Positions 16,421 through 28,514 of a DNA stretch of 33,708 nt are shown in pieces. A program made the position numbers and the translations under genes. The notes beneath the pieces are model-generated. The model was not told the DNA's origin. It made no database searches and worked only from the letters and a program-made list of their open reading frames with translations. Origin of the DNA: an uncultured Porphyromonadaceae bacterium (GTDB taxonomy: Bacteria; Bacteroidota; Bacteroidia; Bacteroidales; Muribaculaceae); the NCBI GenBank assembly GCA_947175665.1, contig CAMWNR010000011.1, positions 1 through 33,708 on the forward strand, given 5' to 3'. How positions within the stretch are numbered: position 1 is the stretch's first letter; each line of letters starts with the position of its first letter.

Positions 16421-16488
16421 TAGGATATGGTGAAGAGGTTAAAAATCAGTAAAAAGAGGGTTAATAGAGGTTATGAGAGGTCTGAGGT

Positions 16489-16519
16489 TTTGCAGATACG
16501 TAAATAATTAGTACCTTTA
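16489..16519 (+). promoter_or_regulatory. Promoter of predicted small RNA 1
   Basis: -33 TTTG (16489-16492), a 19-base spacer and -7 TACCTTTA (16512-16519), one base off TAnnTTTG. The RNA's conserved 5' end begins five bases later. Confidence 0.7.
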
Positions 16520-16523
16520 CCGA

Positions 16524-16595
16524 GTGTTTTTCATAGTATTAAATTAAGATTAAGGTTTCGGACTGTCGCTTTGTGAAAAGCGACAGTCTTTTTTT
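16524..16595 (+). ncRNA. Predicted small RNA 1 (paralogous pair, member 1)
   Basis: About 72 bases, from GTGTTTTTCATAGTATTA to a strong intrinsic terminator. There is no coding potential. The 5' half is single-stranded and AT-rich; the 3' end is a GACTGTCGCTTT/AAAAGCGACAGTC hairpin plus seven T's. Its first 20 or so bases closely match those of small RNA 2 (17526-17591, opposite strand), while the terminator stems are unrelated. Conserved 5' sequence with divergent hairpins points to a conserved pairing region. I recall a family of paralogous sRNAs (FopS) in Bacteroides thetaiotaomicron with this kind of design, but I could not compare sequences. Confidence 0.72.
16561..16595 (+). terminator. 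Intrinsic terminator of small RNA 1
   Basis: Stem GACTGTCGCTTT / AAAAGCGACAGTC with a short loop, followed by seven T's. No plus-strand protein gene lies upstream for more than 7 kb, so it must end a small transcript. Confidence 0.88.
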
Positions 16596-16612
16596 GTTGA
16601 GCCGAGTGATGT

Positions 16613-16672
16613 CACCGCTACTACGGCGAAGCATATTTTAAGTAGGGCCGGTTAAAAATATGTGGAGCGGTG
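16613..16672. repeat. Two-step inverted repeat between small RNA 1 and rubrerythrin
   Basis: Outer arms CACCGCT (16613-16619) and AGCGGTG (16666-16672) enclose inner arms CATATTTTAA and TTAAAAATATG. It could be a hairpin in the DNA or in any read-through RNA. No T run follows. Confidence 0.45.
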
Positions 16673-16745
16673 CGAACTAAATAATTGCATGACGTGTTAA
16701 CATTATGAAAGCAAAAAACATATAAATTATCAAAAACAAAACATT

Positions 16746-17336
16746 ATGGCAAACACAACAAAAAGCCTTAAAGGCACTAAGACCGCAGATTATCTTGCAC
16801 AAGCATATTTAGCAGAATCAACAGCAGTTACAAGATATATTTACTACGCACAGCAGGCTAAGAAAGATAAATATTTATATTATTCAACTCTTATCCAGCA
16901 GACCTCGGACAATGAACTTCATCACGCCAAGATTTTCTTGAAATATCTGGTAGACGGTGGTGTGGTTAATGTACCGGTAGGTGTGGATAGCGGTGATCTT
17001 TCCAATACAGTTAAGAATCTTGAGATTGCGGCATCTGAAGAGCAGAAGGAGGGTGTAGATCTCTATACCGAGGCTGCCAAAGTGGCTAAAGAAGAGGGCT
17101 TTGATGAGATTTCGGCTCAGTTTGCGGCAATTGCTACAATTGAGGCACACCACGAAGCACGCTTTAACAAGATGCGCGAACGTATTGAGAACGGTACTGT
17201 CTGGAAAAGAGAAACACCCATCAAGTGGCAGTGTGATGTATGCGGCTATATTTATGAAGGTACTACACCTCCCGAGGTTTGTCCCGCATGTCTGCATCCA
17301 TATCAGCACTACTTCCCCGCAGATGAAAATGTATAA
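16746..17336 (+). CDS. Rubrerythrin
   Basis: A 196-residue non-haem diiron protein that reduces hydrogen peroxide in anaerobes. The ferritin-like domain (1-150) supplies iron ligands in YLAESTAVTRY (Glu24), SDNELHH (Glu57, His60) and ATIEAHHEARF (Glu133, His136). The C-terminal rubredoxin-like domain binds one iron through CDVC (163, 166) and CPAC (179, 182). Length and domain order are those of classical rubrerythrin. It is a single-gene unit on the plus strand, flanked by two convergently oriented predicted small RNA genes and closed by its own terminator. No exact TAnnTTTG box was found upstream. Confidence 0.95.
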   Translation: MANTTKSLKGTKTADYLAQAYLAESTAVTRYIYYAQQAKKDKYLYYSTLIQQTSDNELHHAKIFLKYLVDGGVVNVPVGVDSGDLSNTVKNLEIAASEEQKEGVDLYTEAAKVAKEEGFDEISAQFAAIATIEAHHEARFNKMRERIENGTVWKRETPIKWQCDVCGYIYEGTTPPEVCPACLHPYQHYFPADENV

Positions 17337-17357
17337 TAACCCGAACAATAATAAGAT

Positions 17358-17393
17358 AAAAATAAGGTTGTGCTTGCACAACCTTATTTTTTT
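17358..17393 (+). terminator. Intrinsic terminator after rubrerythrin
   Basis: A perfect stem AAAAATAAGGTTGTG / CACAACCTTATTTTT with loop CTTG and further T's. The A run on the left makes it potentially bidirectional. Confidence 0.9.
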
Positions 17394-17472
17394 ATCCCCA
17401 TACCGATAATACGCTGTAACTATAACCCATAGACAAGTGCGTGTATATGGATATGTTATAATAGTCAAAGGT

Positions 17473-17495
17473 GCCGCGTTAGCGGTACTTCAGTA
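17473..17495 (+). repeat. REP-like 23-base repeat (single copy)
   Basis: GCCGCGTTAGCGGTACTTCA plus GTA: a small hairpin (CCGC-GTTA-GCGG) followed by a TACTTCAG tail. The same unit occurs as an inverted pair at 30748-30816. It lies between the rubrerythrin terminator and small RNA 2. Confidence 0.7.
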
Positions 17496-17525
17496 GCCCT
17501 TTGAAAGCATATATTTATACAAAAT

Positions 17526-17558
17526 AAAAAAGATTAATTGTCATCGCGACAACTAATC
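17526..17558 (-). terminator. Intrinsic terminator of small RNA 2
   Basis: Minus-strand stem GATTAGTTGTC / GACAATTAATC (one G-U pair) with loop GCGAT, followed by six T's. Confidence 0.85.
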
Positions 17559-17591
17559 CTCTAACCTTAAATCTAATACCATGAAAAACAC
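17526..17591 (-). ncRNA. Predicted small RNA 2 (paralogous pair, member 2)
   Basis: About 66 bases on the minus strand, from GTGTTTTTCATGGTATTA to the T run of an intrinsic terminator. The 5' 18 bases differ from small RNA 1 at one position (CATGG versus CATAG), and both continue into AT-rich sequence ending AAGGTT. The reverse complement of this region reads CTAATACCATGAAAAAC, which looks like a bacterial translation start. A 19-codon open frame on the opposite strand begins at that ATG but is most likely chance. The promoter is a near-perfect consensus. Confidence 0.75.
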
Positions 17592-17594
17592 GCA

Positions 17595-17626
17595 CAAAAG
17601 TAATATTAATTTTCAGCACTTCCAAA
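17595..17626 (-). promoter_or_regulatory. Promoter of predicted small RNA 2
   Basis: -33 TTTG (17623-17626), a 20-base spacer and -7 TACTTTTG (17595-17602), an exact consensus match. The conserved 5' end GTGTTTTT starts four bases later. Confidence 0.82.
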
Positions 17627-25547: not shown

Positions 25548-28514
25548 TTAACGGAATTTGAGAGTCACACCCAGAGTGATCTGAGTAGCATTGGGATAAG
25601 CGGAAGTAACATCAATACCGGGAGTAATACCGGTAGACTGTACTGCCGAAGGATCATTTCCGCTGTACTTAGTCAGCGTAAACACATTCTTCACCGCCAG
25701 ATAGAGGCGCAGAGTATCGAGCAGTCTGCGGTTCTTGATGGGTACATTATAGCCGAGAGTGATATTCTCAAGTTTGAAGTAATCACCGTTTTCAAGGAAA
25801 TAAGAAGAGATTACGCCACCACCTGACCATACATCGCGATCTTTAAGATAAGTGCTGCGCAGTACGTTGTCGCTGCCGCTCCCTTTAAGTCCCATACCGT
25901 ATCTTCTCATATTGAAAATCTGGAAGCCGAATGCACCGTTAAACATAAGGCTGAGATCGAAGTTTTTCCATTTCAAAGTGTTAGACCATGTGAGGAAGTG
26001 TTTCGGAGCGCCATCGCCGATGTATCTCTTATCTTCGGGATTGGCGGCTGCGGCCGGAACCTTCTCACCATCCTTGGTGTATACCAGCATGTTGTGGGCG
26101 TCATCGACACCGGTGTATTCATATCCCCAGAACTGGCCGATTTGTCCCCCTTCTTCTACGCGGAAGAAGTATTCACTTGTACCCACACCCGGTTTCTGAT
26201 AAAGATCAAGATATGAGGCCTGATATATAGAGTTGGATAGTTTTGTAAGTTTGGTAGTGCCGTAAGAATAGTTGATACCGGAAGTCCAGGTGACGGGCTG
26301 ATTTACAATTATGTCACCGTTAAGAGCGAGTTCGATACCGGTATTCTTGATAGTACCGACGTTTACGAGAATATTCGGATAAACATACGGAGGTTGCGGA
26401 GCGGTATAGTTATAAAGAAGATCCTGAGAGCGGCGGTCGAAATATTCGATCGAACCGTAAAGACGGTTGAAGAACATGAAATCAACGCCATAGTTCATAC
26501 TTGAGAGTTTCTCCCAGCCAAGATCCGGATTGGCGTTGTTAGAGGGGCGGTAACCGGTAATCCAGGTGCCGTCGATGAGATAAGACCCCGAGGGTGAATA
26601 GGTTGCGAGCGAAGAGTATGCCTCAAAGTCGCTTCGGCCTGTGACACCGTAAGAGAAACGGGGTTTAAGACTCTGTACAGTCTGTACATAATCGGAAAGG
26701 AATGGAGCCTTAGCCATTTCCCAGGCTACTGACACAGAAGGGAAGGCACCCCACTTCTTATCGGCACCAAACTTGGTAGAACCTTCATAACGTATAGAAG
26801 CCGAACCGATGAGCATTCCGCGCCATGCATAGTTGACACGACCGAAGAAACCGGCAAGCGCACTCTCGGATCTGCCGGCATACATCACGGCCTTGCCGTC
26901 AGCAAGCCATGAACCGGAGCCGATACCTTCCCACATAGGTTTGTCGAAGGTAAAGTTATTGTTTTGTTCAAACATCTGCTGCCAGTTGGTTTTCTCGTAA
27001 GAGTATCCCACCATCGCCTTAAAATCGTGGTCACCGGAATTGAATGAATAGTTGCCGATCCATTCAACGCGGTTGGTCCACCATTTCTGGTACTGTATTG
27101 AAGCGCGTCCGGCATATCCACCCCAGTAAGATTCGCCTGAAGTAGTGGGAGTATAATAGTCGCTCTTAAGGTCATTGTAATTATAGGAGTAGGAAAGAGT
27201 AGTGCTGATATTATGCTTTTCATTGCTCCAGATGTCATATTTCAAGTCTACGGAGCCGAGCAGATAAGTACGGGCACCTTTTGAAGTATTTACCTTAAGT
27301 TGCTGAACAGGATTCTTGATATCGGTAGGAGAAGTAGGCTGATAATAAGAACCGTCTTCGTTATAAACCGGAATTGTGGGGTTCATGGTGAGGGCGGTAT
27401 CAAACATACCGTCATCGCCCCATGTCTCGTTAACACGGCGGGCATTGAGGGAAGCGGTTATACGAAGGTGATGATCGAGAGTATTGGCCGATACAGCGGC
27501 ACGTCCGCCAAACTCCTCGCGCTTGCTTGTGATATCCAGACCGTTTGCACTCTTATAGTTTAGAGATGCGGTATAATAACCACCATTAGCCAGCGAACCG
27601 TCGATGCCAACATATTGGTTGGTATCGTAAGCGGCCTTGCGGGTGATAAGACTATACCAGTCGGTGCTTGCGCCGTAGTCGTTGCCACGACGTGCGAGAC
27701 GCCACTCGTAAGGTGTAAGTACTTCCGGACGATCCTTTTCAACTGCGATTGCAGCATAAGAATCATAGGTAATGACAGGAAGTCCCGGTTCGCCGGTACC
27801 CTTCTTCGTGGTAATAAGGATTACGCCATTCGCACCGCGAGTACCGTAAATAGCAGCCGAAGCAGCATCTTTCAATACGGTCATTGACTCAATATCCTGA
27901 GGGGCGAGAGTCCGGATGTCGCCGCCTGCTACACCGTCTATGACGATAAGCGGGCCATTACCGGCGCTGAGTGATGTAGCACCGCGTACCTGAAGATCGG
28001 CCGAGCCGTTAGGGTTAGCGGCCGCCTGAGTAGAGACGTTAAGACCCGCTACTTTACCGGTCAGCATTTCCATGGGGTTATTCATTGCGCCCTTCTGGAA
28101 ATCGTCGCTGTTGACTTGCACTATAGAACTTGATACCTCCTTTTTGCTGAGCGAGCCGTAGCCCACCACCACAATTTCATCCAGGAGTTCACTATTCTCT
28201 TGCATTACTACATTGATTGTAGACTGACCTTTTACGGGTTTCTCAACGGCACCGAAGCCAACGTAACTGAATACGAGGGTAGCATCGGATGGTACGTTTG
28301 AGAGCGAATAACTGCCGTCAATATCGGTTGCCGTACCCTTAGTCTGATCTCCTTTAACGGAGACACTCACACCGATCAGTTCAAGACCTGCGGGGTCAGT
28401 GACATTACCACTGACAGTCACAGACTGAGCCATCGCTGTCTGAGCGAACATGAGAGTCAGCACCATTAATATGGCATAAATACCGACTCTGAATTTCCAT
28501 GGTTTTCTGTACAT
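25548..28514 (-). CDS. SusC-like TonB-dependent outer-membrane transporter
   Basis: A 988-residue beta-barrel importer for oligosaccharides. Order of parts: signal peptide cleaved near AMA-Q30; carboxypeptidase-regulatory-like domain (about 32-105, VTDPAGLELIGVSVSVKG); TonB-box-like DEIVVVGYG (112-120); plug (about 125-238) ending IYGTRGANGVILITTKKG; then the 22-strand barrel to the terminal LGVTLKFR. It is the first gene of the starch operon, 240 bases after the regulator gene, with its own promoter. Alpha-glucan specificity is inferred from the GH13, GH97 and CBM26 neighbours. Translation starts MYRKPWKF, unlike the common MK(K)-type SusC starts. Confidence 0.95.
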   Translation of the reverse strand: MYRKPWKFRVGIYAILMVLTLMFAQTAMAQSVTVSGNVTDPAGLELIGVSVSVKGDQTKGTATDIDGSYSLSNVPSDATLVFSYVGFGAVEKPVKGQSTINVVMQENSELLDEIVVVGYGSLSKKEVSSSIVQVNSDDFQKGAMNNPMEMLTGKVAGLNVSTQAAANPNGSADLQVRGATSLSAGNGPLIVIDGVAGGDIRTLAPQDIESMTVLKDAASAAIYGTRGANGVILITTKKGTGEPGLPVITYDSYAAIAVEKDRPEVLTPYEWRLARRGNDYGASTDWYSLITRKAAYDTNQYVGIDGSLANGGYYTASLNYKSANGLDITSKREEFGGRAAVSANTLDHHLRITASLNARRVNETWGDDGMFDTALTMNPTIPVYNEDGSYYQPTSPTDIKNPVQQLKVNTSKGARTYLLGSVDLKYDIWSNEKHNISTTLSYSYNYNDLKSDYYTPTTSGESYWGGYAGRASIQYQKWWTNRVEWIGNYSFNSGDHDFKAMVGYSYEKTNWQQMFEQNNNFTFDKPMWEGIGSGSWLADGKAVMYAGRSESALAGFFGRVNYAWRGMLIGSASIRYEGSTKFGADKKWGAFPSVSVAWEMAKAPFLSDYVQTVQSLKPRFSYGVTGRSDFEAYSSLATYSPSGSYLIDGTWITGYRPSNNANPDLGWEKLSSMNYGVDFMFFNRLYGSIEYFDRRSQDLLYNYTAPQPPYVYPNILVNVGTIKNTGIELALNGDIIVNQPVTWTSGINYSYGTTKLTKLSNSIYQASYLDLYQKPGVGTSEYFFRVEEGGQIGQFWGYEYTGVDDAHNMLVYTKDGEKVPAAAANPEDKRYIGDGAPKHFLTWSNTLKWKNFDLSLMFNGAFGFQIFNMRRYGMGLKGSGSDNVLRSTYLKDRDVWSGGGVISSYFLENGDYFKLENITLGYNVPIKNRRLLDTLRLYLAVKNVFTLTKYSGNDPSAVQSTGITPGIDVTSAYPNATQITLGVTLKFR

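Follow-up and report, generated by a model that had tools for sequence, protein, structure and literature searches.

A predicted FopS small RNA and a GibS-like sister unit on either side of a rubrerythrin gene in an uncultured Muribaculaceae bacterium

Two convergent units around a rubrerythrin gene

The window, i.e. the whole stretch of 33,708 nucleotides analysed, carries two stand-alone units that converge on a rubrerythrin gene lying between them; we call them, after their strands, the plus unit and the minus unit. An 18-mer, GTGTTTTTCATRGTATTA, forms the 5' end of both (16524-16541 on the + strand and 17591-17574 on the - strand), and these are its only exact matches in the 2,325,215 bases of the own assembly, in which the reversed-pattern control gave 0 matches. 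The features of the locus are the following.

16488-16492, + strand: TTTTG, candidate -33-type element in the promoter of the plus unit, read from the sequence
16512-16519, + strand: candidate -7 box TACCTTTA of the plus unit, one letter off TAnnTTTG, read from the sequence
16524-16596 (end approximate), + strand: predicted sRNA gene of a second class, whose 5' end is GibS-like and whose short body is FopS-like (plus unit; class alignment A4)
16524-16554, + strand: conserved second-class seed region at the 5' end, single-stranded; near-invariant in 15 rows and unpaired in the centroid fold
16561-16588, + strand: stem of the plus unit's predicted intrinsic terminator, with a T run after it (terminator scan, fold, covariation in the class)
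16746-17336, + strand: rubrerythrin gene (NF045767, 206.8 bits, cut-off 200)
17358-17391, no strand assigned: perfect inverted repeat in the gap that separates the rubrerythrin gene from the minus unit, terminator-like on the - strand in the scan
17524-17591, - strand: predicted FopS sRNA gene (minus unit)
17532-17558, - strand: stem of the minus unit's predicted intrinsic terminator, with a T run after it (terminator scan and fold; no covariation)
17562-17591, - strand: single-stranded R1' seed of the minus unit, complementary to a start region reading TAACCTTAAATCTAATACC-ATG-AAAAAC, invariant in 21 rows of alignment A5 and unpaired in the centroid fold
17595-17602, - strand: candidate -7 box TACTTTTG of the minus unit, read from the sequence
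17623-17626, - strand: candidate -33-type element TTTG (at -35) of the minus unit, read from the sequence

A sequence-only reading of the locus had described two separate units, and the parts it gave them (promoter-like box, 18-mer at the 5' end, terminator hairpin) are indeed present in both. Its statement that the two sequences diverge directly after 18 bases has to be corrected, since an A/T-rich likeness runs on to about base 33. The inverted repeat at 17358-17391 could serve as a terminator for either strand.

The minus unit is preceded by a sigma-ABfr-type -33/-7 promoter sequence, and a -33/-7-like box fits the plus unit as well. The -7 box ends 4 bases before the GTG with which the plus unit begins and 3 bases before that of the minus unit, where the sequence-only reading had given four to five bases for both. 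For comparison, the exact TAnnTTTG box occurs in 399 of the 67,380 18-base windows of the whole stretch (0.6%).

At the other end of the units, a terminator scan of 1.5 kb returned 3 terminator-like sites, those of both units included, against 0.9 +/- 0.9 in shuffled sequences. Both RNAs fold better than their shuffles, with z-scores of -3.90 (0/200 as good) and -3.35 (2/200). The centroid folds contain the terminator only, leaving the first 29 bases or more unpaired in both units. The plus unit, with a single-stranded 5' stretch, a terminator, no middle hairpins and a length of about 70-75 nt, thereby has the architecture of FopS, a family of 14 sRNAs described in the main text of PMC11697453 for Bacteroides thetaiotaomicron.

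Comparison with curated models separated the two units. The minus unit scores 67.5 bits with Rfam RF04319 (BTncRNA_FopS; gathering score 56), matching positions 1-71 of 71; its letters equal the FopS consensus through base 30 and include the extended R1' seed. RF04319 is also the best Rfam family for the plus unit, at 51.5 bits, which is below the cut-off, and the plus unit is therefore not filed as a formal FopS member. This lower score arises because the plus unit has CATAGTATTAAATTAAGATTAAGG at its 5' end in place of the FopS R1' letters CATGGTATTAGATTTAAGGTTA found in the minus unit. With GibS (RF04182), the plus unit reaches 42.9 bits against a gathering score of 115; it carries the GibS 5' seed letters GTGTTTTTCATAGTA, identical to the consensus of the GibS model, and it lacks the R2 middle-region seed, its alignment skipping the middle of the model. 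Over the first 30 letters, 2 edits separate the plus unit from the GibS consensus and 4 from that of FopS; the corresponding figures for the minus unit are 3 and 0. No curated model was found for the class of the plus unit.

In conclusion, the minus unit is, to judge by its sequence, a FopS RNA, and the plus unit belongs to a second class, sister to FopS, whose seed letters resemble those of GibS. The earlier proposal of a paralogous pair with FopS membership is thus borne out for the general look of both units and for the family of the minus unit; the two are not of one type, and membership does not extend to the plus unit. In the own genome there is one copy of each class, plus two weak matches (23.5 and 21 bits). 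The 21-bit match (G000 contig 90, 3647-3697) overlaps a further near-match of the 18-mer and is possibly a remnant FopS copy.

Predicted pairing with start regions in the own genome

As reported in the main text of PMC11697453, FopS uses its R1' seed to pair with SusC-type mRNAs at their start region and blocks their translation, an effect counteracted in B. thetaiotaomicron by RbpB, an RRM-1 protein. Association with RbpB characterizes the published FopS members but does not enter the Rfam definition of the family. We scored the pairing of the first 30 bases of the minus unit with 603 ORF starts, called crudely at the first ATG over 831,658 bases of the own genome and containing a smaller set of 318. 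Pairing at -16 kcal/mol or better was predicted at 53 of the 603 starts, compared to 33 +/- 5.2 for leader-shuffled controls, 0/24 of which reached the actual count. Shuffling only the 3' part of the seed gave 34.6 +/- 6.2 starts at this threshold, and again 0/24 shuffles attained 53; the mean was reached by 3/24 of these shuffles, the count at <= -15 by 2/24, and the counts at <= -16 or -18 by none. Internal Met codons paired at <= -16 in 30 of 567 cases. In the mean, starts (-11.06) did not pair better than internal Met codons (-11.2); the difference is confined to the tail of the distribution. We take the excess at start regions as a modest statistical signal and not as a target list.

Among the best predicted FopS targets are the following.

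L266:2783-4984: dipeptidyl-peptidase relative, -23.4 kcal/mol
L240:3773-5110: glutamate dehydrogenase, -22.6 kcal/mol
L242:1150-2217: phosphoserine transaminase, -22.5 kcal/mol

Further top predictions are a uridine-phosphorylase relative, a cytochrome bd subunit I relative, a Rid-family protein and glutamate formimidoyltransferase; the three proteins termed relatives score below their curated cut-offs. When the 30 best predicted targets were sought among loci from other genomes, one protein was matched (5 loci).

Seven SusC genes lie above the family cut-off, five of them with a readable start. Predicted FopS pairing is -16.1 kcal/mol in one of the five and -7.9 to -12.1 in the others; L164 and L166-L176, being below the SusC cut-off, stand outside this count, and the L166 receptor pairs at -20.0. 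The window itself contains a SusC-type receptor gene about 8 kb from the pair (25554-28418 on the - strand; TIGR04056, 645.5 bits), whose first-ATG start pairs with FopS at only -12.1 kcal/mol.

For the second class, 7 of the 603 starts pair at <= -16, against 6.4 +/- 2.6 in leader-shuffled controls, of which 11/24 reach the actual value; there is hence no excess. The same threshold is passed by 1 of 567 internal Met codons, and 2/60 whole-seed shuffles attain the actual value in the 318-start set. In addition, a search of the own genome for the antisense of the 18-mer, with up to 3 mismatches and no indels, turned up 2 extra places, one with 2 mismatches and one with 3; the control gave 3 matches, so that nothing stands above chance.

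FopS with and without RRM_1, and the rubrerythrin neighbourhood

The RRM_1 domain, which characterizes the FopS antagonist RbpB, found no match in the own genome, nor in any of 118 genomes of the host family that are at least 90% complete (0/118), whereas the control, Bacteroides ihuae, was positive. RF04319, by comparison, matched 118/118 of these genomes at E <= 0.1, and 115 above the cut-off. Because RRM_1 gave no match either in the own genome or in the 118 family genomes, RbpB, the published partner of FopS, seems to be absent from the host family on sequence grounds; the host family may hold an RRM too diverged for the model, but the best RRM_1 hits in other parts of the order have E-values of 1e-15 to 1e-26.

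Across the order, in a sample of 247 genomes with only a few per family, RRM_1 was present in 170 and FopS at E <= 0.001 in 56 (above cut-off in 47). Joining the two gave 33 genomes with both, 23 with FopS and no RRM_1 (some of these FopS matches being weak, as in G151 and G154), 137 with RRM_1 and no FopS, and 54 with neither. The two are accordingly not tightly linked in either direction, as 23/56 and 137/170 carry one alone. The pattern looks family-wise: FopS without RRM_1 was seen in family f1 (4), in f18, f37 and f61 (3 each), in f98 and f99 (2 each), in f10, f13 and f101 (1 each), in 2/3 carriers of f79 and in 1/3 carriers of f53. This distribution departs from the published picture. 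In a limited search of the literature on FopS, RbpB and RRM proteins of Bacteroidota and Muribaculaceae (PMC11697453 and PMC12119571 included), we found no report of FopS without an RRM protein.

All together, we consider it quite probable that both units are independently transcribed base-pairing sRNAs, likely lowering translation at start codons and working without an RRM antagonist. Each unit would be transcribed from its own sigma-ABfr-type promoter and end at its intrinsic terminator; its 5' seed, some 30 nt long and unstructured, would be complementary to the region around a start codon (ACC-AUG-AAAAAC in the case of the minus unit); and the seeds would cover the start codons of several mRNAs in trans, most likely with lowered translation as the outcome. 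In this host, the FopS mechanism would then run without an RbpB-type RRM antagonist. We infer transcription, repression and targets of both units from the sequence.

It is possible, if on balance somewhat unlikely, that the sRNA pair acts together with an unrecognised RNA-binding protein which has replaced RbpB. FopS is kept in all 118 genomes without an RRM_1 match, and a partner protein is needed by many sRNAs. Against this stands the high affinity with which GibS bound its targets in vitro in the absence of any protein, as stated in the main text of PMC7366714.

A wider proposal, which we regard as doubtful, would have FopS regulation proceed with no need for an RRM protein in the host family and in the sampled FopS carriers of several other families, the relief of FopS repression provided by RbpB being taken over by the second, GibS-like class, and the main targets having moved from SusC to amino-acid and central metabolism. 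As the second class has the same first 18 bases and weaker predicted pairing, it could compete for FopS start codons.

The surroundings of the units bear on whether they serve rubrerythrin itself. A model of the FopS of the host family, R1, was built from alignment A2, which combines both window units with 26 loci of the set L007-L036 (30 loci, L020-L023 left out); it scores the plus unit at 55.7 bits and the minus unit at 81.9 bits, both units being contained in it. Applied to 52 rubrerythrin loci, R1 yielded 44 matches: 24 strong ones (76-85 bits; class 1), 18 weaker ones (48-56 bits; class 2) and 2 poor or incomplete ones (L039 poor, L054 partial), the last two outside the class counts. One or both sRNAs occur at 28 of the 52 loci (14 with both, 10 with the strong and 4 with the weak only) and 24 have neither, including L054 with its partial match at a contig end; the loci cover up to 1.5 or 3 kb on each side, and some contigs, e.g. 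L044/L079, are counted twice.

The layout changes from locus to locus. Rubrerythrin is flanked by both classes in 6 of the 14 loci and the two units converge only at this window. Four genes, namely rubrerythrin and recO (both identified by profile match) together with what we take to be a DUF2851 gene and a pseudouridine synthase gene, occur with both sRNAs in changing order and orientation (L037-L085). As to the second class, no gene family neighbours it in more than 3 of the 35 best loci (about 3 kb or less, the window's included), and a common neighbour gene was rejected on this maximum. Since the layout varies and no second-class neighbour recurs in more than 3 loci, the sRNA pair is not a rubrerythrin module: a conserved rubrerythrin-flanking module was rejected, and the suggestion that pairing around rubrerythrin is a conserved design falls with the position and orientation, which differ among relatives. 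At L045 and L052/L066, recO lies between two rubrerythrin paralogues that share about 39% and 60-63% identity with that of the window.

That both units are cis elements regulating rubrerythrin itself, one as a leader and the other as an antisense or 3' element, we regard as very unlikely. Both do lie within 200 bases of the gene, and the 28 of 52 loci with one or both sRNAs agree with such a role, but each unit has a promoter-like box and a terminator of its own, its distance, side and orientation vary, and recO, DUF2851 and pseudouridine synthase are shuffled among the rubrerythrin loci. Furthermore, the second class is found elsewhere beside unrelated genes, and FopS at at least 1 to 14 places per host-family genome; these copy numbers are lower bounds because of strict filters and the limited number of candidates scored. 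Independent transcription of both units as trans-acting sRNAs remains the preferred reading.

Conservation and spread of the two classes

The upstream regions of the relatives share little besides the promoter-like box. TAnnTTTG ends 3-4 bases before GTG in 23 of the 24 distinct class-1 upstreams, that of L054 among them, and of the 15 distinct class-2 upstreams 9 have the exact TAnnTTTG and 12 have TAnnTTTR; outside this box the upstream sequences are largely divergent. Constant promoter spacing and a constant 5' end, combined with a free terminator sequence, are as expected if transcription starts at the GTG. The sequence-only reading had pointed to the shared 5' sequence ahead of terminators as the thing to look for in relatives; it is present there, and the finding survived the comparison.

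Class 1 was aligned in A5 with 21 of its 24 matches (L069, L072 and the diverged L053 omitted), and no variation occurs in the first 35 columns, not even at third codon positions. The strong copy of L053, outside these 21 rows, differs at base 2 and has one T inserted (GAGTTTTTC...). No covariation was seen in the class-1 terminator in 21 of 24 rows, there being too little variation for it to be demonstrable.

Class 2 was aligned in A4 with 15 of its 18 matches (L044 and L050 omitted as lying on the same contigs as L079 and L080, and L072 as a copy identical to that of L069), and the first 35 bases are near-invariant, small gaps and single changes aside. Its terminator stem consists of 12 pairs, and 97.2% of the cells in the 12 distinct rows are standard-paired. 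Seven of the 12 pairs are changed on both sides, in 21 cells. Among 500 shuffles, 0 reached the paired percentage, the number of both-side cells or the covariation score, while 6 reached the number of both-side pairs and 11 the 14 further pair types; slid controls were down to 46-56% paired.

A model of the second class, R2, matched 113 of the 118 host-family genomes at E <= 0.001, part of these being cross-hits to ordinary FopS at about 40-52 bits. At E <= 2e-6 (about 54 bits), 78 of the 118 genomes were matched, with 9 of 11 in the own genus. The names of close rubrerythrin carriers (L068, L075, L086-L088) point to Muribaculaceae as the probable host family. Class assignment was made by reading 58 loci of R2 matches, and not all of the 78 genomes; the second-class form, CATAGTATT...AAGAT, is present in 35 of these 58 loci (L179-L212, L214), spanning several genera of the host family (L179-L209) and two other families, f18 and f99 (L210-L212, L214). 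The remaining loci are FopS-like, intermediate or devoid of the 18-mer. The latter is the case of L216, in which the R2 match (50.9 bits, near 1501 on the minus strand) has TTTTTTTTCATAAAAAGTATTATTAGGG where the usual 5' 18-mer is missing, and which may be a distant form or have arisen by chance. Short tandem rows of FopS-like copies, two or three per about 1.2 kb, were also seen in other families, at L234 (starts near 332, 568 and 1501) and at G261 contig 1, 3141137-3141708.

These data leave a very slim chance that the plus unit is a decaying, functionless FopS copy. Its score below the FopS cut-off, its -7 box one letter off the motif and the lack of a target excess over leader shuffles would suit decay; against it stand a 5' end that hardly varies over 15 class rows, alongside compensating pair changes in the terminator stem, and the recurrence of the same form in 35 of 58 loci, across several genera and two other families. 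Hardly credible at all is a translated short peptide from the minus unit, a GTG- or ATG-start mini-ORF (MVLDLRL...): the 5' end does read in frame as ATG GTA TTA GAT TTA AGG TTA, but this coding reading was rejected because third codon positions are invariant in the 21 rows of A5 (first 35 columns) and the ATG is destroyed in the plus class, which has ATA and a shifted frame, and the B. thetaiotaomicron authors, in the main text of PMC11697453, excluded sORFs in the FopS loci.

In conclusion, the alignments support an sRNA subclass with a conserved seed of its own, the copy of which in the window falls below both curated cut-offs, FopS and GibS, and the preferred reading of both units as base-pairing sRNAs is retained. 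The sRNAs occur throughout the host-family sample, in which RRM_1 was not found; because a family of the same order thus has FopS with no RRM_1 found, the contribution of RbpB becomes open to natural comparison.

Relation to known small RNAs of Bacteroides

The minus unit resembles the FopS RNAs of B. thetaiotaomicron in its full-length match, its R1' letters, its unstructured 5' end followed by a terminator, its -33/-7-type promoter and a seed antisense to a start region. It differs in its setting, the own genome having no RRM_1 match and SusC starts showing no strong predicted pairing. Moreover, there are two FopS copies here at E <= 1e-5, among the 150 of 303 candidates scored, as against 14 in B. 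thetaiotaomicron, for which the main text of PMC11697453 reports a few seed SNPs in four members and otherwise no strong sub-diversification.

The plus unit has GTGTTTTTCATAGTATTA and AAGATTAA in common with GibS (RF04182) of B. thetaiotaomicron; unlike GibS, it is about 73 nt long instead of 145 and the R2 middle region is absent. The relatives of the plus unit have TAnnTTTG-type boxes, whereas GibS has promoter motif 2, according to the main text of PMC7366714. Two more families give weak matches that take in the 5' end, BTnc231 (RF04180) with at most 26.8 bits against a cut-off of 80.4, and BTnc060 (RF04184) with at most 24.4 bits against 228.9; these probably arise only through the common 5' end.
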